Assembly (NCBI GenBank): GCA_946497955.1
Contig: CAMMMH010000009.1
Coordinates: forward strand, 1 to 50,275
DNA: 50,275 nucleotides
Source: an uncultured Mycoplasmatota bacterium
GTDB lineage: Bacteria > Bacillota_I > Bacilli_A > RF39 > UBA660
Direction: 5' to 3'
The first letter of the stretch is position 1. The number at the start of each line of letters is the position of its first letter. Shown in pieces: positions 18,032 through 50,269 of this stretch. The notes below the pieces were generated by a model. That model was given only the letters and a program-made list of their open reading frames with translations, ran no database searches and had not been told where the DNA came from. A program made the position numbers and the translations under genes.

Positions 18032-19789
18032 TCATTTTATGGGACATAATATAAACTCATTACCATATTTTTCTTTCATCTTATCTAACCAGTCCCAGAT
18101 ATTATCAAGGTTAACCACTGTTATATCTATACTTCTAAAAAATGGATATTTTTTTTCAATATATTTTCTTATTAAGTTTAATTTAATTTCTATACTTTCA
18201 TCACTACTTACAAGAAAGTCAATATAAGAATTAAAAATGTCTGTACTAATAAATTTTTTACCTGTATATAATGATAATATCTCATTAAAACTAACTTTTT
18301 TTTCATTATTAAATCGAAAATGCTTGTCAAAAATTGATAATGCAGCCTCTCTTTTATCTTCATTTGAATGTGTGTATATAAATGTCGTAGATAATTGAGA
18401 ATGTCCCATTAATGTTTTTACATCAGACGGAGCTAAATTAGGATTATCATTCATTTGCATTGAACAATAACTATGTCTTAAGCCATGTAATGTAACATCT
18501 TTTAATTGCTTATGTTTATTTTTAAAAGTAGTCCATTTATTCGATGGTGTATCTGGAAACATTATTCCACCACTTCTACTTAAAAATAAATTTTTAGGTG
18601 CGACATAATTTTTATTTTTTCTTTTAAAATTCATTATCTTTCTTTCTCGCAATTTTAAATATTCTTTTATTTTATCAACACAAAATTGAGGAATAGGAAT
18701 TTCTCTAACACCACCTTCGGATTTTGTTTTTTTCTCAACTATCTTTTTATTTTCACTATCCCATACAGCAGATATTTCTATCTTTATAAAATTTTTATCA
18801 AGATGTATGTTATCAAGATGAAGCCCAACAAGTTCTCCTCTTCTCATACCTGTACAAATAAAGAGATTAAATAGTAATTCAGTAGTAATATCTTCTTTTT
18901 CTAATAATAGCATAACTTCTATTAACTCATGAATATTATAGGATTCTTTTTCTTTTGTAGATACACTAGGTGCATTAACTGTTAATACTGGGTTTGATTC
19001 AATATAATTCCAAGCTACAGCCTTATTTAATATTTTTCTAAGTAGTCTATAAACACTATTTACAGTAGTTGACGATAATGTTACTATATTACCATTTTTA
19101 TCTGGTCTTTCTCTTTTGCGTTTTTTTAATTTATTTATAATTCGTTGAACGATTAAACCATCAATTTTATATAATGGCATATTAGCTATTTCTGGCAGAA
19201 TATAATTTTTTAATTCACTTTTTCCTGTTTGAACTGTTGTAGGACTTAATTCAATTTCTGCATATTCTTTATAATAAATTCTTACAAAGTCTATAAATTT
19301 AATATTGCTTTTATTCCCCTTTCCATTTTTTAATTTAAATTCAGCTAATTTTTTATCTCTTTCCTTCTTTGCTTGAGCTAACGTTCCTTCAAATACTGTT
19401 GAATAATAATCTCCTTTTTGACCATTTGAGCCTCCTTTTCTTATAAATATTCTATATTTTTTGCCTTTCTCTATTTCATATATATACTTATCTACTTTAT
19501 TTGTTGCTTTAGGTGATTTTTTTATACACTCTTTTTTGCTTTTAATTTTTTGAGTATTTTTCGTATTTTTTTTAATTTCAAAAAAGTCTTCATCATTTTT
19601 TTGCTTATTAAGCAATAATCCATTCTCTTTTAATTTAGCATCTCTTATTTTAATTGCCTCATCTAACGTACCATTTATATATTGATCAAAGCTTATTTTT
19701 ATATTTTCTTTCTTACTAACCTTTAAAAATTTAATTCTATACCTATTTTCTGATACAAAATAAATGTATTTTTCAACTTTTTCCTGCAT
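18032..19789 (-). CDS. int: Tyrosine recombinase/integrase of an integrative element
   Basis: CTGMRRGELVGL, LHGLRHSYCSM, LMGHSQLSTTFIYTHS. Confidence 0.93.
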   Translation of the reverse strand: MQEKVEKYIYFVSENRYRIKFLKVSKKENIKISFDQYINGTLDEAIKIRDAKLKENGLLLNKQKNDEDFFEIKKNTKNTQKIKSKKECIKKSPKATNKVDKYIYEIEKGKKYRIFIRKGGSNGQKGDYYSTVFEGTLAQAKKERDKKLAEFKLKNGKGNKSNIKFIDFVRIYYKEYAEIELSPTTVQTGKSELKNYILPEIANMPLYKIDGLIVQRIINKLKKRKRERPDKNGNIVTLSSTTVNSVYRLLRKILNKAVAWNYIESNPVLTVNAPSVSTKEKESYNIHELIEVMLLLEKEDITTELLFNLFICTGMRRGELVGLHLDNIHLDKNFIKIEISAVWDSENKKIVEKKTKSEGGVREIPIPQFCVDKIKEYLKLRERKIMNFKRKNKNYVAPKNLFLSRSGGIMFPDTPSNKWTTFKNKHKQLKDVTLHGLRHSYCSMQMNDNPNLAPSDVKTLMGHSQLSTTFIYTHSNEDKREAALSIFDKHFRFNNEKKVSFNEILSLYTGKKFISTDIFNSYIDFLVSSDESIEIKLNLIRKYIEKKYPFFRSIDITVVNLDNIWDWLDKMKEKYGNEFILCPIK

Positions 19790-19807: not shown

Positions 19808-20140
19808 TTAAATTTTATATTTTTGATTTTCTTTTTTTGTACACATGTTTTTTTCTAACCATTTTTCTACTTCAGATTTACTAAACATTCTTTTTTTCCC
19901 AATTGAACAATAAGGCAAGTCATCATTTTGAATGGCTTTATTGATGTTATATCTAGTAAAAAAAGGATATTTTTCTATTAATTCATTTATTGTATAAAGA
20001 GTTTTAACTCTATAATGACTTTGCAAGTTGCATTCTTCTTTATCTGATTTAACAGTTTTACTGCCATTAATAGCTGTGGCAAATTCTTCTAAAGTCATTC
20101 TTTTTAAAATATCATATAATTCTTCTTTATTACTTATCAC
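19808..20140 (-). CDS. Excisionase-like helix-turn-helix protein
   Basis: YTINELIEKYPFFTRYNINKAIQNDDLPYCSIGKKRMFSKSEVEKWLEKN, adjacent to integrase. Confidence 0.7.
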   Translation of the reverse strand: MISNKEELYDILKRMTLEEFATAINGSKTVKSDKEECNLQSHYRVKTLYTINELIEKYPFFTRYNINKAIQNDDLPYCSIGKKRMFSKSEVEKWLEKNMCTKKENQKYKI

Positions 20141-20857: not shown

Positions 20858-21082
20858 TTATATGTTTGACTTTTTATTTCTGATTCTTTTACATTTCAAT
20901 TTAAATTCTTTTTTAGTATTAACTTCATATAAACTACTATTTAAAATAACATCAGATACTTTCTCTATTGCATTCTTTTTACTTATAGCATTAACATACA
21001 TAATATCTTTTTTATCTTTAGTAATAATAGTTACTATATAATCCTTTTCAACATATTTCTTTAATTTATTTATCATTTTCAT
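20858..21082 (-). CDS. Small hypothetical protein downstream of MazF
   Basis: 74-aa ORF overlapping the MazF ORF by 17 nt. Confidence 0.55.
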   Translation of the reverse strand: MKMINKLKKYVEKDYIVTIITKDKKDIMYVNAISKKNAIEKVSDVILNSSLYEVNTKKEFKLKCKRIRNKKSNI

Positions 21083-21434
21083 CCTCCTTATTTAAAGCAA
21101 AGGCTATCTTCAGAGCCTTATTAATTTCTTTCATCTTATAATCATCAATCAAACCAACAAAACCTTTTAATCTTTTTTTATCAACAACTCTGACTTGTTC
21201 CAATAAAATTATAGAATTAGGTTTTAATTTGCTTTGTGGATAAACTCTCACATGAGTAGGTTGAAATCTGTCTTTATACCCTTTAGTGGAAATAGGCGCA
21301 ACTACAGTAGTTGGACTATATTTATTACCAATATCATTTTGTAAAATAACAACAGGTCTGCATCCTTTTTCTTCACTTCCTAAAGCAGGGCTTAAAGATG
21401 CATAAAAAATAGCTCCTCTAATTACTTTTTTCAT
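21066..21434 (-). CDS. MazF/PemK family endoribonuclease toxin
   Basis: RGAIFYASLSPALGSEEKGCRPVVILQNDIGNKYSPTTVVAPIST...EQVRVVDKKRL. Confidence 0.9.
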   Translation of the reverse strand: MKKVIRGAIFYASLSPALGSEEKGCRPVVILQNDIGNKYSPTTVVAPISTKGYKDRFQPTHVRVYPQSKLKPNSIILLEQVRVVDKKRLKGFVGLIDDYKMKEINKALKIAFALNKEDENDK

Positions 21435-21729: not shown

Positions 21730-21995
21730 TTGTGTTAAAATTATTCTCACTCCCTTAACACAGGGAATCATTAAATGACTGATAGCTAATCAGTTCCATA
21801 GGAATTGCACCTCTCTGTGGATCTCACAGAGTCGCCCCGATTGATTTAGTCTGTCGCTAGACGAAAGTATCATTATCCCTATTACTTGTCATCGCATTAT
21901 TAGTAGCTAACTAATATTTATGGTCAAGTATTTATCGCAAGCGTACTTACCAACGTGCTTAATCATCTCTAATTAGTAATAGGAACGTATTTAAT
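21730..21995 (-). ncRNA. Candidate structured non-coding RNA in the mobile element
   Basis: No ORF; TATAAT at 22002-22007 upstream; paired helices cctattact/agtaatagg, ctctgtg/cacagag, ctgat/atcag; pseudoknot potential gtgttaa/ttaacac. Confidence 0.5.
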
Positions 21996-22103: not shown

Positions 22104-22577
22104 CTAATTTTTAAATTTTTTAGAAATTTTTTCTAATGCTATATCAATACTATATTTAACAGCAACTTTAGTACAATTCTCTTCTTTAGCAATTTCTTCT
22201 AAAGTCATATCATCAAAGTAATACTTTCTTAATCTTCTTTTTTGAACATCAGGTAAAGAATTAATCACTTGCTTAATGTCATCAAAAATTATTTTTTTCT
22301 CTACATTTTCTTCTATCGAAGTTGGTAAAATTAGCATTCTTTTATATAACGTTTCTTCATATATTTCAGAATGCTCTATATGAGACCTATATTTATGTAT
22401 TTGTGATATATCCTCTAATTCAAAACTATCAAATGCTTCATATACCTTTTCTGATATTTCTATCTTATGTATAATTTTTTTATTATCTTCAAATTCTACT
22501 GTATAAGTATTTTTGTCCTCATCATAGCCTAAAGTATAAGGATTATCCTTACTTTTATTTCTTTTTGGCATTGCCAT
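22104..22577 (-). CDS. Sigma-70 region 4-like / HTH regulator of a mobile element
   Basis: INSLPDVQKRRLRKYYFDDMTLEEIAKEENCTKVAVKYSIDIALEKISKKF; ATG at 22577 with SD GGAGG. Confidence 0.75.
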   Translation of the reverse strand: MAMPKRNKSKDNPYTLGYDEDKNTYTVEFEDNKKIIHKIEISEKVYEAFDSFELEDISQIHKYRSHIEHSEIYEETLYKRMLILPTSIEENVEKKIIFDDIKQVINSLPDVQKRRLRKYYFDDMTLEEIAKEENCTKVAVKYSIDIALEKISKKFKN

Positions 22578-22581
22578 CTTT

Positions 22582-22622
22582 CTTTCCTCCAATCGAATAT
22601 TTTTAAATTGATTGGAAGAAAG
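22582..22622 (-). promoter_or_regulatory. SD-sequestering hairpin before the sigma-like gene
   Basis: ctttcctccaatc (22582-22594) pairs with gattggaagaaag (22610-22622); contains GGAGG. Confidence 0.65.
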
Positions 22623-22746
22623 GAGGACTTCTACAATTTACAGACAAAAAAAGACTGGACTTTATAGCCGTTTTAGAGCCACAAAATCCAGTCTTTTCTA
22701 TATCTCTTATATAAATTGATTTTAAGTAGTACTTCTCGTCATACAT
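22603..22746 (-). CDS. 47-aa leader ORF MYDEKYYLKSIYIRDIEKTGFCGSKTAIKSSLFLSVNCRSPPFFQSI
   Basis: TAGGAG SD upstream; overlaps an 11-aa ORF upstream; spans terminator 2 and half of the SD hairpin. Confidence 0.45.
   Translation of the reverse strand: MYDEKYYLKSIYIRDIEKTGFCGSKTAIKSSLFLSVNCRSPPFFQSI
22650..22696 (-). terminator. Leader terminator 2
   Basis: AAAGACTGGA...TCCAGTCTTT followed by TTTTG on the minus strand. Confidence 0.65.
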
Positions 22747-22803
22747 AGGCACAAACTCCTACTGCAATGCCCATATTTAATGATTTAGAAGTACTACTTA
22801 AAA
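22720..22803. repeat. 17-bp perfect inverted repeat enclosing the 11-aa mini-ORF
   Basis: ttttaagtagtacttct (22720-22736) / agaagtactacttaaaa (22787-22803). Confidence 0.85.
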
Positions 22804-22822
22804 AATCTTAACCATTAGAAAA

Positions 22823-22851
22823 AACTAGCAATAAAAACATCATTGCTAGTT
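22823..22851 (-). terminator. Leader terminator 1
   Basis: AACTAGCAAT gatgttttt ATTGCTAGTT TTTTCT on the minus strand. Confidence 0.75.
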
Positions 22852-22947
22852 ATCACATCTATCAACCTACTCCTCATAAAATTACTCTCTTTACCATCTT
22901 ATTGCATAGCTTAATGCACTGCCATTTTTTTCCTTCTATATTAACAC

Positions 22948-22976
22948 ATAATGATTGTTAAAGTTTTAAATGTCAA
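22948..22976 (-). promoter_or_regulatory. Promoter of the leader/sigma-like transcript
   Basis: TTGACA - 17 nt - CATTAT on the minus strand. Confidence 0.65.
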
Positions 22977-28192: not shown

Positions 28193-29923
28193 TTATAAAT
28201 TATTGTTACTTACACTACTACTATCTCTTAAATTTAAATAATACTCATTGTTTTCTAAAGACTCTACTGTTCCATCTGCAACTTTCCTACCTTTATCTAT
28301 GATAATTAAGTGATCTGCTTTATTCATTACTTCTTTTTTATGAGTAATTATTATGACAGTATGGTCTTTTGATAATTCTTTAAAGACTTTAACTACACTT
28401 TTTGTATTAGTAGAGTCTAATGATGAAGTTACTTCATCAAAAAGTAATATTTCTGAGTTTGTTAAGATACTTCTAGCAATGGAAAGAAGTTGTTTTAATC
28501 TTGTCGAAACATTAGAACTATTTTCTTCTATAATTGTATTATATCCTTTAGGTAAGCTTAATATTTCTTCATGTATTCCTAGTCTTTCACATACTTCTTG
28601 TTGCCTTTTAAAGTTAGAATCCACTAAAGATAAATTATCTCTTATACTCATATTAAAGAGAATACTTTTTTGAGTTACAACACTAACATTTGTCTTATAA
28701 ACGTCATCAGTATAGTTATAAATATCTTCTTTATCTACTAAAACTTTACCACTATCTGGTTTTATTAATCTTAAAATAATATTTAATATAGTGCTTTTAC
28801 CACTACCACTACGTCCTACAATAGCGGTTAATTCATTTGGTTTTACTTTAAAAGTAATATCTTTTAAAACTTGCTTATTAGTATAAGATGAATAAACGTG
28901 TTTAAACTCTAAAAGACCTTTAATATTATCTTCAGTAGATGTATTTAATACTTTATTACTTTTTGGATGATAATTTAAAACAGAATAAATCCTTTCTACT
29001 GATACTCGGCAATTTATAACATTTTTAACACAAGTTTCTAAGACATATTTTAGTTCTTGATTTAACATAGTAAAATAGCCTATAACTAACACTATTTTAT
29101 CAACTGTATAATTATTTTGAAATAGTAAGAGTAATGTAACAGCATAAATACTTACTTCTCCTAAATCTAATATTAATTGAAGAAAATTTGACTGAATATC
29201 GGCATATCTTCTTTTCAGTCTGTAATTATGACAGAATTTTTTATTAATAGTATTAAAATGATTATAGTACTTTTCTTGTAGATTATAAACTTTCATTTCT
29301 TCAAGTGATGATAACTCTTCCATAAAGACTCCAGCGATTTTATCTTGATACTTTCTTTGCTTATGTAAATATTTAACTACTTTCTGATTAAATATCATCA
29401 TAAATATTACATAAAGACTAGAAAATAAGAATACTACTATACCTACTACTGGAGAGGTTAAAGCAGTTAGTATTACTATTACAATTATTCTGATAAAGCC
29501 TATAATAATATCACTTAAATTATCATTAATACCTACTATTTTCCATATATCACTAGATGAGGCTTGTAATACTTCGTCTATATCTTTATGTTTAGAAAAT
29601 TCTAAGTCATAGGTAGATAGTTTATCAAAAACTTTCCTCTTAAGTCCTGTATAACAATAATTAGAATCTAAAGCACCGCCTTTATAATTCCAATGATAAA
29701 ATATTACTTTAGCAGAAACAGAAGCAAAGAAATAAAATATCCATTTTAAGGTTTCATTATAATCTCCTAATGTTAGGTATTTAACAATTCCTGAAGCAGT
29801 AAATGGTATTAGAATACTGGCAATTACTGCTAAAGCTTTAGATGTAAAAATCATTATATAATAAAATTTGTTAGGCTTAATACAAGACCAATATTTTTTA
29901 TAGGTATCTATCATTAATCTCAT
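28193..29923 (-). CDS. ABC transporter, fused TMD-NBD (degenerate signature motif)
   Basis: Walker A VGRSGSGKST, Walker B ILLFDE, ITHKKE; signature reads VSTRLKQ instead of xSGGQxQ. Confidence 0.9.
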   Translation of the reverse strand: MRLMIDTYKKYWSCIKPNKFYYIMIFTSKALAVIASILIPFTASGIVKYLTLGDYNETLKWIFYFFASVSAKVIFYHWNYKGGALDSNYCYTGLKRKVFDKLSTYDLEFSKHKDIDEVLQASSSDIWKIVGINDNLSDIIIGFIRIIVIVILTALTSPVVGIVVFLFSSLYVIFMMIFNQKVVKYLHKQRKYQDKIAGVFMEELSSLEEMKVYNLQEKYYNHFNTINKKFCHNYRLKRRYADIQSNFLQLILDLGEVSIYAVTLLLLFQNNYTVDKIVLVIGYFTMLNQELKYVLETCVKNVINCRVSVERIYSVLNYHPKSNKVLNTSTEDNIKGLLEFKHVYSSYTNKQVLKDITFKVKPNELTAIVGRSGSGKSTILNIILRLIKPDSGKVLVDKEDIYNYTDDVYKTNVSVVTQKSILFNMSIRDNLSLVDSNFKRQQEVCERLGIHEEILSLPKGYNTIIEENSSNVSTRLKQLLSIARSILTNSEILLFDEVTSSLDSTNTKSVVKVFKELSKDHTVIIITHKKEVMNKADHLIIIDKGRKVADGTVESLENNEYYLNLRDSSSVSNNNL

Positions 29924-31647
29924 ATTAACACCTCACTTTCAGAGTCTAATTTCTCTTTTAAGTCATCTAATGATTTATAACTTTTCGCTTTGCCATTATT
30001 CATATAAATTATCTTATCTGCTTTAGTAATTAAATCTTCTCTATTAGTTATAACTAAAATAGTATGATCTTCTTTTAATCTTACTAGGAGGTCTATTATT
30101 TGATTTGTAGTTTTAGGATCAAGGGATGCTGTTATATCATCCATTAAAAGAATTTCGGCATCTGTTAATAAACTTCTTGCAATAGATAATAGTTGTTTCT
30201 GTCCTCCACTTATATTAGTAGCATTCCCAGTTAAAATAGTACTATACCCTTTAGATAAGCTCATAATAAATTCATGTAATCCCACTTCTTTAATTACTTC
30301 TTCTTGTCTTTTCTTATTACCATTAATTAATCTTAAATTATCTCTTATACTCATATTATAAATAAAAGGATTTTGTTTAACTAGAGTTATATTAGAAGCA
30401 TAGATACTATCACTATATTCATAAATATTAACCCCATCTAAAAATATTTCTCCTCCATTAATAGGATAAAATCTTAATAATAAGTCAAAAAGAGTTGTTT
30501 TACCACTACCAGATGGACCGATAATAACGTTTAAAGTATTAGGTTTAATCTCTAGACTAATATTATCTAAAATATATTTAGAATTATATTTATAACTAAC
30601 ATTTTTTAAAACAATTGAACCATATATCTCATTATTTTCATATTTACCAAAGAGATTAGATAAATCATCTTCATAAGTTAAGGCTTCATTTACTCTTTTA
30701 ACAGAAACATGATATTCTTTAATTTCACGATAAGATCCTACTAATTCTGTTAAGTTTTCTATCAACTGGTCATAATAACCAATAATTAAAATAACTAAAT
30801 CAATTGTAGCATTGAACTTCATCATAAATAATAAAAGGATTAAATATAAAATAACTTTGGTATATTGTGGTATTAAAGTACTAGTATTTTCATTTCTAGC
30901 ATAGTATTTACGTTTTTTAAAATAAGCTTTAGTATATCTATTTAGTTTAGTTTGTAACTTTTTATAAAGTTTATCTTTTATAGGAAGTGTTTTTATTTCT
31001 TTTAGGGCATTTAACTCTTCTACATAAGTAGAATTTAAAGTATCATTATGTTTCTTTTGTTCTTTTAGATATTTAGAAAATTTATCCATTGTTTTAGTCA
31101 TAAAAACAAGATAAATTACTAAAGATATTACTGTAATTAGAGCAAAGATAAAATTGGCTCTAAATATTAAAATAACTGTTAAGATAGCCATAAATATTGT
31201 TGAAAGATATACAGTTGTAGAGTCTAATAATAAACAATAACTCGGAATATCATCTCCTACTAGACTTAACATTTTACCATTATCTAATGTTTTAGATATT
31301 TTTCTTGATGAAGTACAAATTTTATTAAAAAGTTTTTTATGAATAATATCACAATAATAAGTTTGAAGAAAGCTATAGATATAGTAATTAAAATACCAAA
31401 CAATTTCATAGACTATATAAGCAATTGCTAGATAAAAGGTATAATTATATGCTAAAGTATTTTGTTCTGTAGCATACTTTATAATTTGACTAGCAAAATA
31501 AGGAAATACTGCCATAATAACATAACCTAAGATACAAGTAAAAAAGAAAAGAAAGGTCATAAACTTCTTAAATGGTACTACTTTAAAATCATTATACACT
31601 TCTTTTATATACTTCATACTGAATACACTTCCTACTCTATGTATCAA
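29920..31647 (-). CDS. ABC transporter, fused TMD-NBD (degenerate Walker B Glu and H-loop)
   Basis: Walker A IGPSGSGKTT, signature ISGGQKQ, Walker B ILLMDD, H-loop LVITNRED. Confidence 0.9.
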   Translation of the reverse strand: MIHRVGSVFSMKYIKEVYNDFKVVPFKKFMTFLFFFTCILGYVIMAVFPYFASQIIKYATEQNTLAYNYTFYLAIAYIVYEIVWYFNYYIYSFLQTYYCDIIHKKLFNKICTSSRKISKTLDNGKMLSLVGDDIPSYCLLLDSTTVYLSTIFMAILTVILIFRANFIFALITVISLVIYLVFMTKTMDKFSKYLKEQKKHNDTLNSTYVEELNALKEIKTLPIKDKLYKKLQTKLNRYTKAYFKKRKYYARNENTSTLIPQYTKVILYLILLLFMMKFNATIDLVILIIGYYDQLIENLTELVGSYREIKEYHVSVKRVNEALTYEDDLSNLFGKYENNEIYGSIVLKNVSYKYNSKYILDNISLEIKPNTLNVIIGPSGSGKTTLFDLLLRFYPINGGEIFLDGVNIYEYSDSIYASNITLVKQNPFIYNMSIRDNLRLINGNKKRQEEVIKEVGLHEFIMSLSKGYSTILTGNATNISGGQKQLLSIARSLLTDAEILLMDDITASLDPKTTNQIIDLLVRLKEDHTILVITNREDLITKADKIIYMNNGKAKSYKSLDDLKEKLDSESEVLI

Positions 31648-31699
31648 TTATAACAGAAAACAAAGAAAAAAGACTAGTAATTATAAACTAATCGTAATT
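31642..31699. repeat. 58-bp dispersed repeat, copy 1 (terminator-like)
   Basis: One mismatch to 35298-35355. Confidence 0.9.
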
Positions 31700-31734
31700 A
31701 AAACTTTTTTCTTCGTAACCATCTTTCTTAATTA

Positions 31735-33450
31735 CTATAAATTTTTCTGTTTAAATAGTCTTTGGTAATATCTATTATTTTCTAATAATTTCTTATGTTT
31801 ACCTATCCCTACTACTTTACCTTTATCAATAACAATCAATTCATCAGCAACTTTCATTAAATCTTTTTTATGAGTAATAATGATAACAGTATGGTCTTTC
31901 TTTAAATCTTTTAAAACTTTAATAATATGTTTTGTAGTTTTAGGATCTAAAGCCGATGTTATTTCATCAAAAAGTAAAATTTCTGCTTTAGATAATAAAG
32001 TTCTAGCCATAGAAATTAATTGTTTCTGCCCTCCACTTACATTAGTTGCATTCTCACTTAATATAGTATCATATCCTTTAGGAAGACTCATAATAAAATC
32101 ATGTATTTCAACTCTTTTACAAGCATTTATTTGATTAGTTGTATTCTTATCTACTAAAGATAAGTTTTCTTTAATACTCATATTAAATATAAAAGGTTTT
32201 TGGGTTGCGATAGAAACATTAGAAGGATAAACATTACTATTATAATCATATATATCAACACCATCTATATAAACATGACCAGAATCTATCTTATAAAGCC
32301 TTAAAAGGATTCTAAAAATAGTACTTTTACCACTACCACTTTCACCTACTATTGCTGTAAGCTTATTAGGTTCTATTTCAAAGCTAGCTTTATCAAGGCT
32401 TATATTATTTTCATACTTAAAAGTAACATTATCGAAAATAATATCACCAAAAATATTATCTTCTAAATAGTCTCCAAATTCTAACATATTTTTATTATGA
32501 TAATTTATTACTCTAGAAAGTCTATCTATTCTAACAGAACTATTACAAACCTTATTAACTTTTTCAAAAAAATCAAAATTTTCCCTTTCTATCTGGTCAA
32601 TATAAGTAACAATTAATACTAAATCACCAACACTCATAACACCTTTCATAATATGATTAATTACAATTATATATGCGATAAATTTAGATATTGTAATAAT
32701 AACAGGATATAGTACTTTAGATCTGTCCCAATACTTTCTTTTTAAGAAATATTGTTTAGTCCAGCTTCTTTTATAAATATCAAGATAGTTATTTAATTTA
32801 TTTTTCATATCAAATGCTTTAATTTCACTTGAAGCATCTAACATCTGTTCATATAAAGATGTAATTCTATCTTGATTTCTTCTTTGACCCATAAAATAAT
32901 AATCTTTTTTCTCTTGTCCTTTAGCAAGCATTACTTGATAGATTATATTAAATGCTAAAACTATTAACCCAATTTCTAAATTATAAAAAATAAGTATTAA
33001 TAAAGCCATAATATCTGTAAAAAAATGAGCAAGAGCATCTATCATTCTATCTGTAAACATACAAACATCCATAACATCACTAGTAACAGTATTATCTAAA
33101 TATGATTTAGGAAGTCTTTTGGTAAAATCTTCATCATAATGAGCGACTTTTGATGCTATTATTAGGTGAAGTTTATTATAAACATAATTAGTATTTTTAG
33201 CATAAACAACAAAGTTTAAATGATGACAAATAAGATAAACTAAATAATTAATACCTAAATAAACAATATTAATAAAAGTCTCTTGATACTCTCCTAAAGT
33301 AGCATAGTCAATTATTCTTGCTGCAAAAATAGGAGTTATTGCAAAAGTAATACTTCTAAGAAAGGCTGTTATAAACAAAAGTATTAAGTATTTCTTGTTA
33401 TCTGCTCCAAGACTAAAATAATTTTTACATATTTTAAAATATCTACTCAT
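31735..33450 (-). CDS. ABC transporter, fused TMD-NBD
   Basis: VGESGSGKST, VSGGQKQ, ILLFDE, ITHKKD; ATG at 33450 overlaps upstream stop by 8 nt. Confidence 0.92.
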   Translation of the reverse strand: MSRYFKICKNYFSLGADNKKYLILLFITAFLRSITFAITPIFAARIIDYATLGEYQETFINIVYLGINYLVYLICHHLNFVVYAKNTNYVYNKLHLIIASKVAHYDEDFTKRLPKSYLDNTVTSDVMDVCMFTDRMIDALAHFFTDIMALLILIFYNLEIGLIVLAFNIIYQVMLAKGQEKKDYYFMGQRRNQDRITSLYEQMLDASSEIKAFDMKNKLNNYLDIYKRSWTKQYFLKRKYWDRSKVLYPVIITISKFIAYIIVINHIMKGVMSVGDLVLIVTYIDQIERENFDFFEKVNKVCNSSVRIDRLSRVINYHNKNMLEFGDYLEDNIFGDIIFDNVTFKYENNISLDKASFEIEPNKLTAIVGESGSGKSTIFRILLRLYKIDSGHVYIDGVDIYDYNSNVYPSNVSIATQKPFIFNMSIKENLSLVDKNTTNQINACKRVEIHDFIMSLPKGYDTILSENATNVSGGQKQLISMARTLLSKAEILLFDEITSALDPKTTKHIIKVLKDLKKDHTVIIITHKKDLMKVADELIVIDKGKVVGIGKHKKLLENNRYYQRLFKQKNL

Positions 33451-35197
33451 TATCAAATACACCTCCCTTACTAGGTGACTTTCTAGCAATTAAATCTTGA
33501 TAATATTTATTAGTTTTTACTAAATCTTTATGAGTACCCATACCTACAATCTTACCTTCATTTAAAACTATTAAATAATCAGACTTTTTCATTAACTCTT
33601 TCTTATGAGTAATAATTAAAATAGTATGGTCTTTCTTTAAGTCTTGTAAAACATTCTCTATCTTTAAAGCTGTATCAGGGTCAAGGGAAGATGTTACTTC
33701 ATCAAAAAGTAAGACTTCAGAAGCTGTTAAAAGAGTTCTTGCGATAGAGATTAACTGTTTTTGTCCGCCACTTATATTTTTAGCATCTTCTCTTAAGACA
33801 GTATCATATCCTTTAGGAAGACTCATAATAAAGTCATGTATTCCTACTCTTTTACACATTTCAATTTGTCTAGATTTATCTTTATCAACTAAATCAAAAT
33901 TAGCTTTTATACTCATATTAAAAACAAAAGGTCTTTGGTTAACAATAGAAACATTGCTCTTATAAACTTCTTTAGCATAACTATAAATGTCTTTACCATC
34001 AATAGTTATATCACCACTATCTGGCATATAAAATCTAAGTAATAAATTAAAAATTGTTGTTTTACCACTACCTGTATGTCCTACAAGTGTAGTTATTTTA
34101 TGAGGATTAGCTGTAAAACTAATGTCAGTTAAAGTAGTTTTATTATTATATGAAAAATAAACATGATTAAACTTAACAACACCATTTATAACATCATTAA
34201 AATAATTACCAACTGGAATAGAATGAGGCTTATAATCAAGAATAGATTGTACTCTATTAACAGCAACATTAACCTCTCTAATTGTCGTAGTTGTTGTTAT
34301 AAGTTTTCTAAGAGAAACAAACAAAGAATCAAAATAACCAATTATTAAAACAACTATATCTACTGTAATATTTCCCTTAACTAATAATATAAGACATAAG
34401 AAATAAATAAGTATTTTAAACCCATAAGTTAAAAAATTAACATCATTATCTCTTATAACAGCATATTTCCTTTTAGTATTATAAGCCCTACTCCAACCAT
34501 TATTTATCTTCTTTAATTTTTCTTCTAAAGGCTCTATAATTCCAAAACTCTTAACTTCACTAGAACCTTTAGTAATTTGAGAAAATAAAACTCTATATTT
34601 ATCAACATTACTCTTTTGCTTACGATAATAAAAATCTACTCTTCTATCAGTATAATTTCTAATAAATATATAGAGTATTGTAAAAATTATAAAAAGAAAA
34701 GATATTAAAACATTACAATTAATTATAATTATAATAAGTACTAAAAATTCTAAAATACTCATTATTAATTCTGATACTCTATCACACATATCACCAATAT
34801 TCATAACATCGCCATTAACACTATTTAAAAGTTTTCCTTTATTAACGTGTTTAGTAAAGTTATCATCAATTATACTTACTTTATCAAAGATCTTCTGTTG
34901 TAAATGGACATAACAATAATGATTATTTTTACCATAATATTTATGATTTATAAAGAAAAACAAGCGATATAAAAAGTAAGACAATGCCAAAAAGCCTAAA
35001 CTTAAATAAGCCATAGGATAATCTTTTAAAGTTATATATTTAATAATTAAAGATGCCCCTAAAGGTATTAAAAGATTCGCTCCTTTATAAAGAAATGCTG
35101 TTATTAACATCATAATAAAATATTTTTTATTAAACTCTGCTAATTTAAAATAGTCTTTTATAAAATGATAATACTCCCTTATCATTACCATCACCAC
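33443..35197 (-). CDS. ABC transporter, fused TMD-NBD
   Basis: VGHTGSGKTT, ISGGQKQ, VLLFDE, ITHKKE. Confidence 0.92.
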   Translation of the reverse strand: MVMVMIREYYHFIKDYFKLAEFNKKYFIMMLITAFLYKGANLLIPLGASLIIKYITLKDYPMAYLSLGFLALSYFLYRLFFFINHKYYGKNNHYCYVHLQQKIFDKVSIIDDNFTKHVNKGKLLNSVNGDVMNIGDMCDRVSELIMSILEFLVLIIIIINCNVLISFLFIIFTILYIFIRNYTDRRVDFYYRKQKSNVDKYRVLFSQITKGSSEVKSFGIIEPLEEKLKKINNGWSRAYNTKRKYAVIRDNDVNFLTYGFKILIYFLCLILLVKGNITVDIVVLIIGYFDSLFVSLRKLITTTTTIREVNVAVNRVQSILDYKPHSIPVGNYFNDVINGVVKFNHVYFSYNNKTTLTDISFTANPHKITTLVGHTGSGKTTIFNLLLRFYMPDSGDITIDGKDIYSYAKEVYKSNVSIVNQRPFVFNMSIKANFDLVDKDKSRQIEMCKRVGIHDFIMSLPKGYDTVLREDAKNISGGQKQLISIARTLLTASEVLLFDEVTSSLDPDTALKIENVLQDLKKDHTILIITHKKELMKKSDYLIVLNEGKIVGMGTHKDLVKTNKYYQDLIARKSPSKGGVFDNE

Positions 35198-48671: not shown

Positions 48672-49247
48672 ATGAAAAATATTGCAATATTTGGAAGTTC
48701 TAGGTCAGGCAAATCTACTCTATCAAAAATGATATGTAAAAAATATCCCCAATATCATATTATTATTGGAGATGATATTAGACATGCTTTTCAAGTAGTT
48801 CTACCTAATAATCATATTAGTAATAAAGGTGGAAGTGGCATGAAAGATGACTTTCCTAATTTTCTTGCCTGTCTTTTTTATAAAAGTATAAAGAGAAATA
48901 AAGGTGTTTTTAACTATATTATAGATACTTGTAATATAACTCCACAGAAAGCTAAAGAACTTTTTGATAGAGATGATACTATATTACTATTTTTAGGAAC
49001 TCCTAAACAAACCATAAAACAACATTTTGACGAAGTAAGAAAATATGAAACAGATAGTGACTGGACTAGTAGAAGAACAGATGAAGAAATAATAGAGCAT
49101 TCTAAACATTCAATAGAAAAAAGTATAGAACAAGAAAAAGAATGTAAAAAATTAGGTATTTGGTATGTTGATACGTCATTTAATAGAAATGAAGTATTAA
49201 ATGAAACTCTTAAAAAACTAGATAAAATTATTTTAGAAGATAATTAA
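48672..49247 (+). CDS. P-loop kinase-like protein
   Basis: NIAIFGSSRSGKSTLSKMI Walker A; SD GGAGGGAG. Confidence 0.75.
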   Translation: MKNIAIFGSSRSGKSTLSKMICKKYPQYHIIIGDDIRHAFQVVLPNNHISNKGGSGMKDDFPNFLACLFYKSIKRNKGVFNYIIDTCNITPQKAKELFDRDDTILLFLGTPKQTIKQHFDEVRKYETDSDWTSRRTDEEIIEHSKHSIEKSIEQEKECKKLGIWYVDTSFNRNEVLNETLKKLDKIILEDN

Positions 49248-50269
49248 TTATTTTCCTTTATTAACTTTTTTATTCTTTCTACATTTTTAGGATTATCTTC
49301 TAAATTATTCATTAATACTAAAAACTCTTCTTTAGAAAGTATAGATTTAGATAAATCAATTAAATCATCTGATGAATTTACATCTGAAAAAGGACATATA
49401 ATAGAATTAAATATTGCTACTACCAGATTTCGATTCTCTTCTGTAACTATTAATCTTATAACTTCTTTATAGTTTTCTTTTGCTAAAACATCTTTATTTG
49501 TTGCTACATAATACCCATATTTAGTTTGATATAATTCATTTGCATTCGTTATTAAACTTATGATGTCTATATAATCTTTTTTTTCTAGCACATCCTCATT
49601 TATTGCTACTGAAGAACCATTTGATGCTTGATATAATTTTTTCGCATTTATTATTAAACTTATAATTTCTCTATAATCTTCTTTTGCTAAAACATTTTTG
49701 TTTATTGCTACTTCGTATCCATATAGTGCATGATAATCCTCTTTTGTACTTGTTATTAAACTTATGATGTCTATATAATCTTCTTTTGCTAAGACATTTT
49801 TATTTATCGCTACTTCGTACCCGTATAAGGCATGATATGATTCATTTGCATTCGTTATTAGGCTTATAATTTCTCTATAATCTTCTTTTACTAGTACATC
49901 TTCATTTGTTGCTACCAAAGAGCCATATTCAGCTTGATATGGTCCTTTTGAAGTTATTATTAAACTTATGATGTCTTTATAACCCTCTTTTGCTAAAACT
50001 TTTTTATTTGTTGCCACTAAAGAACCATACAATGCCTGATACTCTTCTTTTGCAGTTGTTATCAAACTTATAATTTCTCTATAATCTTCTTTTGCTAAAA
50101 TATCTTTATTTGTTGCAACACAATATCCATATTTAGCTTGATAAGAACCTACTGCATTTGTTATTAAGTTTATAATTTCTTCACAATCTTCTTTTGCTAA
50201 AATATCTTTATTTGTTGCCGCTAAAGAACCATACAATGCCTGATACTCTTCTTTTGCAGTTGTTATCAA
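49244..50269 (-). CDS. Tandem ~34-aa repeat protein (partial, continues past the right edge)
   Basis: About 8 repeats of YQALYGSxxATNKDxLAKEDYxxIISLIxxAxxx, plus a non-repeat C-terminus. Confidence 0.7.
   Translation of the reverse strand: MITTAKEEYQALYGSLAATNKDILAKEDCEEIINLITNAVGSYQAKYGYCVATNKDILAKEDYREIISLITTAKEEYQALYGSLVATNKKVLAKEGYKDIISLIITSKGPYQAEYGSLVATNEDVLVKEDYREIISLITNANESYHALYGYEVAINKNVLAKEDYIDIISLITSTKEDYHALYGYEVAINKNVLAKEDYREIISLIINAKKLYQASNGSSVAINEDVLEKKDYIDIISLITNANELYQTKYGYYVATNKDVLAKENYKEVIRLIVTEENRNLVVAIFNSIICPFSDVNSSDDLIDLSKSILSKEEFLVLMNNLEDNPKNVERIKKLIKENN

Follow-up and report, generated by a model that had tools for sequence, protein, structure and literature searches.

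What keeps the regulator of an integrative element silent, and what would switch it on? The question is raised by a sigma-like gene that lies, together with a tyrosine integrase, on the minus strand of the window, by which we mean the whole stretch of 50,275 nucleotides that was analysed. Between a candidate promoter and the start of this gene stands a leader (22976-22577) in which terminators, hairpins and a 47-aa upstream open reading frame (uORF) are interleaved. Our reading, to which we give a probability of about 0.7 from comparison of the leader with its homologs, is that the leader would keep the sigma-like regulator off by default and switch it on through translation of a RAPP-type arrest peptide. 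This reading turns on an R-S-P-P motif (22632-22621) that adjoins the hairpin over the Shine-Dalgarno (SD) sequence of the sigma-like gene and that the original prediction, made from the letters of this one sequence, had missed.

Anatomy of the leader and of its element

The features of the leader and of the genes behind it are collected in Table 1. Much of the architecture first proposed for the leader holds. The two terminators are real, as the leader region has three terminator-like sites compared with 0.2 in shuffled sequences, and the 17-bp inverted repeat reaches a score of 38 while the shuffle maximum is 21. The 47-aa ORF is likewise confirmed, and it encloses terminator 2 (22696-22650 within 22746-22603), which is the arrangement of an intrinsic-terminator attenuator; the hairpin over the SD of the sigma-like gene is present as predicted. 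Only part of the promoter claim stands: the string TTGACA-N17-CATTAT exists, but promoter-like sites are no more frequent in the leader region than in shuffles (6 versus 7.5), so that the string argues only weakly for a promoter. Rfam covariance models gave no match to the leader at gathering scores, with nothing below threshold except miRNA and snoRNA noise.

Table 1. Leader features and downstream genes, in window positions.
Feature	Positions	Strand	Remarks
Candidate promoter, TTGACA-N17-CATTAT	22948-22976	minus	10/12 consensus matches
Terminator-like hairpin 1, upstream of uORF	22823-22851	minus	12 pairs, then T run
Start-site helix, 5' arm, TTTTAAGTAGTACTTCT, conserved core GYAGTA	22787-22803	minus	pairs with 22720-22736
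Small hairpin GGCA...AGGAG...TGCC around the uORF's own SD	22748-22771	minus	read from sequence
47-aa uORF, putative arrest peptide, MYDEKYYLKSIYIRDIEKTGFCGSKTAIKSSLFLSVNCRSPPFFQSI*	22603-22746	minus	end of this kind shared by 55 distinct leaders
Start-site helix, 3' arm	22720-22736	minus	within first uORF codons (EKYYL)
Terminator 2, entirely within uORF	22650-22696	minus	20 pairs; T run encodes Leu-Phe-Leu residues
R-S-P-P motif, AGA AGT CCT CCT	22621-22632	minus	motif tally, synonymous codon use, position
SD hairpin of sigma-like gene, burying GGAGG (22590-22586)	22582-22622	minus	z = -4.9; 5' arm from second Pro codon
Sigma-70 region 4-like regulator, 157 aa	22104-22577	minus	Pfam PF08281 9.4e-07, PF04545 4.3e-06
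pemK RNA (Rfam RF02913)	21796-21876	minus	61.9 bits; between sigma-like gene and pemK
PemK/MazF-like toxin	21066-21434	minus	PF02452 6.4e-30; syntenic in most relatives
xis-like HTH protein	19808-20140	minus	PF12728 2.1e-06
Tyrosine integrase	18032-19789	minus	PF00589 3.4e-19

Behind the sigma-like gene follow, in this order, the pemK RNA, a 66-aa ORF, the PemK/MazF-like toxin, a 206-aa protein, the xis-like protein and the tyrosine integrase. The succession of sigma-like gene, pemK RNA and pemK is kept among relatives, and among 13 related loci that were scanned, 10 have the RNA behind the sigma-like gene (L021, L026, L029, L035, L041, L042, L044, L074, L077 and L003); it is thus a regular component of the element family. 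An integrase of the same kind occurs in L044 (67% identical) and in L037 (99% identical), the latter being the closest relative, whose sigma protein is 96% identical to that of the window. Within the window's family, 45 of 390 genomes carry the sigma-like gene, and the host genome itself has a second copy with its own leader (L021). One related locus, L007, is a decayed element: its sigma-like gene contains a stop and its uORF frame is broken. Elsewhere in the window, four tandem related ABC-transporter half-genes (575-584 aa) occupy 28193-35197 and adjoin a transporter-like gene, and a 341-aa ORF made of near-identical repeats (..DIISLITNAKEEYQALYGSLVATNKDVLAKEDY..) lies at 49244-50269.

The motif that ends the uORF

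The uORF of the window ends in ...NCRSPPFFQSI*, with RSPP five codons ahead of the stop, and an RSPP-type motif ends the uORF in 55 of 57 distinct homologous leaders, most of them from metagenome-assembled genomes. Fifty-four fit [R/K]-[S/G/D/A]-P-[P/S/T] and one reads RLPS; the tally is RSPP 31, RGPP 9, RDPP 4, RAPP 3, KSPP 3, RSPT 2, and one each of RSPS, KDPP and RLPS. The regular expression used for this tally accepts only motifs of the RSPP kind, so the evidence is the fraction of leaders with such a motif and not the invariance of the prolines. R[SGDA]PP, the end that RAPP-like small ORFs bear, is found in 47 of the 55. The uORF directly precedes the regulated gene, and the motif lies 48-94 nt upstream of that gene, beside a regulatory RNA structure. 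The motif is absent from L052, a distant relative, and from L108; L108 and L109 are decayed copies.

Codon use in the motif indicates that the peptide itself is under selection, since its Arg is encoded by five codons from both codon blocks (AGA 34, CGT 10, AGG 4, CGA 2, CGC 1) and its Ser by both AGY (24) and TCN (13), while the second position is limited to Ser, Gly, Asp or Ala in 54 of 55 leaders. The 12 bases of the motif have a DNA identity of 0.68, compared with 0.38 for the preceding 45 nt. In a control on ten AT-rich loci, the motif was found upstream of 7 of 138 ORFs of at least 100 aa, and all seven were the sigma-like gene. A combined scanner that looks for RxPP, an SD hairpin and a start codon gave 10 real matches in 160 kb (mean of 0.45 in shuffles) and a single match in the window, the leader studied here, although it yields false matches in GC-rich DNA. 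A scan of the collection with the literal Clostridia-type CRSPP DNA pattern was abandoned, as it returned mostly unrelated GC-rich contigs; the motif alone is therefore not diagnostic without hairpin, SD and context.

RSPP, RGPP, RDPP and RAPP are all members of the RAPP-like ribosome-arrest motifs (PMC12992588). At the second position of ApdA and ApdP, Gly works at least as well as Ala, and Ser, Asp and Pro are partly active, while Arg is irreplaceable (PMC12992588); the residues found at this position in the leaders match those that work or partly work there. During RAPP-like arrest, the third and fourth codons occupy the P and A sites, and EF-P gives no release (PMC12992588); the mechanism is treated further in PMC10951233. 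With the register of the published peptides (PMC12992588) transferred to the window, the P site of the stalled ribosome is predicted at 22626-22624 and its A site at 22623-22621, and a translating ribosome would probably arrest there. Against arrest stand the partial activity of RSPP in ApdA/ApdP and the A132S variant of ApdP, which is called non-stalling in simulations (PMC10951233), as well as the Lys that replaces Arg in four leaders (KSPP or KDPP in L087, L091, L098 and L101) and is not tolerated in ApdA/ApdP; these four may be relaxed copies or may use a different arrest chemistry. In addition, L006 and L049 hold RSPP or RSPT beside the SD hairpin in a frame that is open for only 6 codons and has no ATG start, while another short ORF ends at the terminator, which may reflect either decay or a frame change. 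RxPP motifs are most depleted in Bacillota proteomes (PMC12992588), and RAPP/RGPP uORFs are reported absent from many Bacillota in a uORF survey that took in RAPP and RGPP only (PMC12992588).

If ribosomes arrest at the motif, the arrest might be regulated once formed, with the nascent peptide sensing a ligand or a force and releasing the ribosome, as in CruR, SecM and MifM. A Cys immediately ahead of the motif Arg in 35 of 55 leaders could sense a thiol or metal, and the uORF of Bordetella CruR, a RAPP uORF, does respond to copper (PMC9426467); however, by eye neither a CXXC nor a localisation signal is evident in the uORF of the window. Residues 3-12 before the Arg are rich in Phe, Leu and Ile and could feel a membrane pull, but this Phe-rich stretch is partly forced by the T run of the terminator. 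The uORF ATG, most often about 37-50 codons ahead of the motif, leaves enough peptide to fill the exit tunnel, yet the N-terminal parts of the uORFs are unconserved. We regard release by such a sensor as unlikely, though worth keeping in mind.

RNA structures around the uORF

The SD hairpin and the motif are placed next to each other throughout. The distance from the first Pro codon to the start of the hairpin's helix is 0-10 nt in every one of the 55 leaders, and in most of them the stem begins at or after the second Pro codon; the median folding z is -5.6. When the stall was modelled by removing the bases under a ribosome halted at the first Pro codon, the median unpaired probability of the SD changed from 0.003 in the free leader to 0.93, and in the window from 0.00 to 0.77. 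Computed over the 55 leaders, 53 are closed (<0.3) when free and 48 are open (>0.7) when stalled. Upstream of the motif, the uORF region contains a terminator in 42 of 55 leaders (1.6 in shuffles), whose stem ends 20-39 nt ahead of the motif, and terminator 1 is kept, with changes, in L037 and L003. The proposal that the leader couples both transcription, through a terminator in a translated uORF, and translation, through the SD hairpin, is strongly supported by this conservation in 55 leaders.

The same hairpin geometry could be read as plain translational coupling without arrest, in which ribosomes on the uORF melt the hairpin, terminating ribosomes reinitiate at the regulator, and the Pro codons are kept only as the anti-SD strand. 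The CCTCC or CCACC bases of the motif can indeed pair with GGAGG, and since the conserved CC.CC bases double as the anti-SD strand, part of their conservation is due to RNA pairing. Pairing alone leaves the synonymous variation of the Arg and Ser codons and the restricted second residue unaccounted for, however, and a stem that starts at or after the second Pro codon does not fit either. Moreover, the uORF stops ahead of the gene start in 42 of 55 leaders but runs past it in the other 13, so that termination-coupled reinitiation is not the general mechanism. Coupling of this kind thus appears quite improbable.

At the other end of the uORF, the inverted repeat covaries: double compensatory changes occur at three positions across 16 leaders. 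The helix, with its GYAGTA core, ranks first among helices in 15 of the 55 leaders, and its inner flanks are paired in 73 of 96 cells compared with 64.3 when partners are shuffled (7 of 5000 shuffles reach 73). Pairing was counted on motif-anchored arms because the MAFFT alignment of the helix is unreliable; the row of L003 is mis-anchored in this count, and its true helix was found in the separate best-helix search. Judged by this pattern of substitutions, the two arms of the inverted repeat form a long-range helix that is conserved and encloses the start of the uORF. The small hairpin around the uORF's own SD has the same layout in L021, L027, L041, L044 and L003.

Taken together with arrest at the motif, these structures would give the following sequence of events. 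The long-range helix with its GYAGTA arms and the small hairpin would hide the start of the 47-aa uORF, as the covariation suggests, and the start-site helix would thereby set the default state to off. As long as the uORF is untranslated, terminator 2 within it would end transcription, and any RNA that is read through would still keep the SD of the regulator in its hairpin. Once loaded, a ribosome would trail the RNA polymerase and prevent terminator 2 from forming, and would then come to rest on R-S-P-P, its P site occupied by the first Pro codon. The front half of this ribosome would cover the 5' arm of the SD hairpin, which would free the SD for a second ribosome to translate the regulator. 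The opening of the uORF start, or initiation there, is probably the regulated step.

Two further features of the leaders were noticed. In the hairpin at the uORF start, the GGCAAU/GGCAUU strand is complementary to a 5' hairpin loop of the AUUGCC/AAUGCC type, apparently with co-changing bases (observed in L021, L041, L003 and the window, 22925-22900 with 22772-22764), and the two may form a pseudoknot or an alternative pairing. Extra copies of AGYAGTA, up to six per leader and often in apical loops, lie upstream of the start-site helix in L021, L030, L042, L044, L022 and others; they may serve as alternative partners or bind a protein.

Mini-ORFs, known leaders and the spread of the module

The original prediction had read a chain of mini-ORFs as meaningful layers of the leader and had suggested that ribosomes stall on them. 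The strings exist, but five ATG-to-stop ORFs are close to the 2.96 +/- 1.4 of shuffles, and conservation fails between close relatives. Compared with the window, L037 has AAG for the start of MAVH, TTA for the TAA stop of MQ, and no MVKRVIL*, while its terminators and inverted repeat persist, as do the longer ORF and the SD hairpin; L003 lacks MAVH*, and its MGIAVGVCAYV* begins with ATA. MAVH*, MQ*, MVKRVIL*, MRSRL... and MGIAVGVCAYV* were accordingly rejected as a conserved core, and a conserved short leader peptide for drug-dependent stalling of the ermC type is not found among them, since L037 and L003 have lost or changed them. Ribosome stalling as such remains supported; the support comes from the conserved RAPP-like motif in which the 47-aa ORF ends and not from the unconserved mini-ORFs of 3-20 codons. 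We consider it improbable that stalling on the mini-ORFs lets the leader respond to ribosome-targeting antibiotics or translation stress, given such mini-ORFs and an arrest type that requires no drug, even though leader attenuation by ribosome-targeting drugs is known in macrolide and tetracycline resistance elements and a tet(O) gene lies immediately upstream of one homologous module. For mef/mel, leader attenuation has been linked to ribosome-targeting drugs (PMC4335068).

Several known systems share parts of this arrangement. Mobile elements are known to use attenuation by leader peptides, in some cases with terminators inside the leader ORFs, in ermC-type and tet(M)/Tn916-type leaders, where drug-dependent stalling or read-through precedes resistance genes; these leaders are not known to use an RxPP motif, and here the regulated gene is instead the element's own sigma-like regulator. 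SecM and MifM uncover a hidden SD when the ribosome stalls on the upstream peptide. Both monitor secretion or insertion, whereas no such target gene follows here, and the terminator inside the uORF is a further difference. The RAPP-like peptides (ApcA, ApdA, ApdP and the RQH family) resemble the present leaders in that a small uORF, bearing R-[A/G/S/D]-P-P close to its C terminus, immediately precedes the gene under control (PMC12992588, PMC10987492, PMC10951233). They mostly carry a localisation signal and precede secA, secDF, yidC or metal/thiol genes, in contrast to the mostly RSPP uORFs here, which sit in Bacillota mobile elements before sigma-like genes and have a terminator within. In CruR, stalling on a RAPP uORF also prevents transcription termination (PMC9426467), but that system relies on Rho and on copper through CXXC, whereas the leaders described here have intrinsic terminators and a second layer that hides the SD.

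The module is found well beyond the family of the window. Enterococcus faecalis and Streptococcus suis have the same arrangement of uORF, hairpin and sigma-like gene in elements linked to tet(O), where the uORF is ...NRKGHRAFAVFLLSIFVGKCRRAVSDMRCRSPPLHL and the NRKGHRAFAV codons form, by eye, a terminator-like stem. No annotation of this uORF was found in the public records that carry the sequence, and it had no match as a query against 299 genomes of the window's phylum. In its own frame, the ratio of nonsynonymous to synonymous differences is 0.37-0.82 for all pairs; when the other two frames are read, most pairs give values close to 1 or higher. In another Bacillota family, the module stands ahead of at least eight different sigma-like genes, and the sigma-like genes behind it in tet(O)-linked and other Bacillota elements are unrelated.

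Searches of the literature, with subscription journals largely outside their reach, found no report that links arrest peptides with conjugative elements or an RSPP/CRSPP motif with mobile elements, and no account of an RSPP-uORF system in work on the Tn1549 and Tn916 leaders. As far as could be searched, the mechanism class is already known, while the family, the host elements, the preference for RSPP, the internal terminator and the regulated genes are new. The wider claim, that an undescribed and widespread class of RSPP-type arrest peptides decides the activation of sigma-like regulators across many kinds of Bacillota elements, tet(O)-linked ones included, seems to us evenly balanced. If it is true, RAPP-type arrest peptides, so far found mainly at protein-export and metal-homeostasis genes, would gain a new biological role in integrative elements, at whose head they would be followed by unrelated sigma-like genes; activation of an element would be a direct read-out of ribosome loading or state, which would help to explain the silence of these elements, and the switching-on of the regulator would be directly testable in vitro. 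In two tet(O)-linked loci (L059, 3400-3850, and L060, 3430-3890), the TGA that ends a short ORF (MSFFRAVIYLLI...RYFSP*) shares bases with a TTG (as TTGA) that is in frame with the RSPP uORF, which suggests a coupled pair of uORFs.
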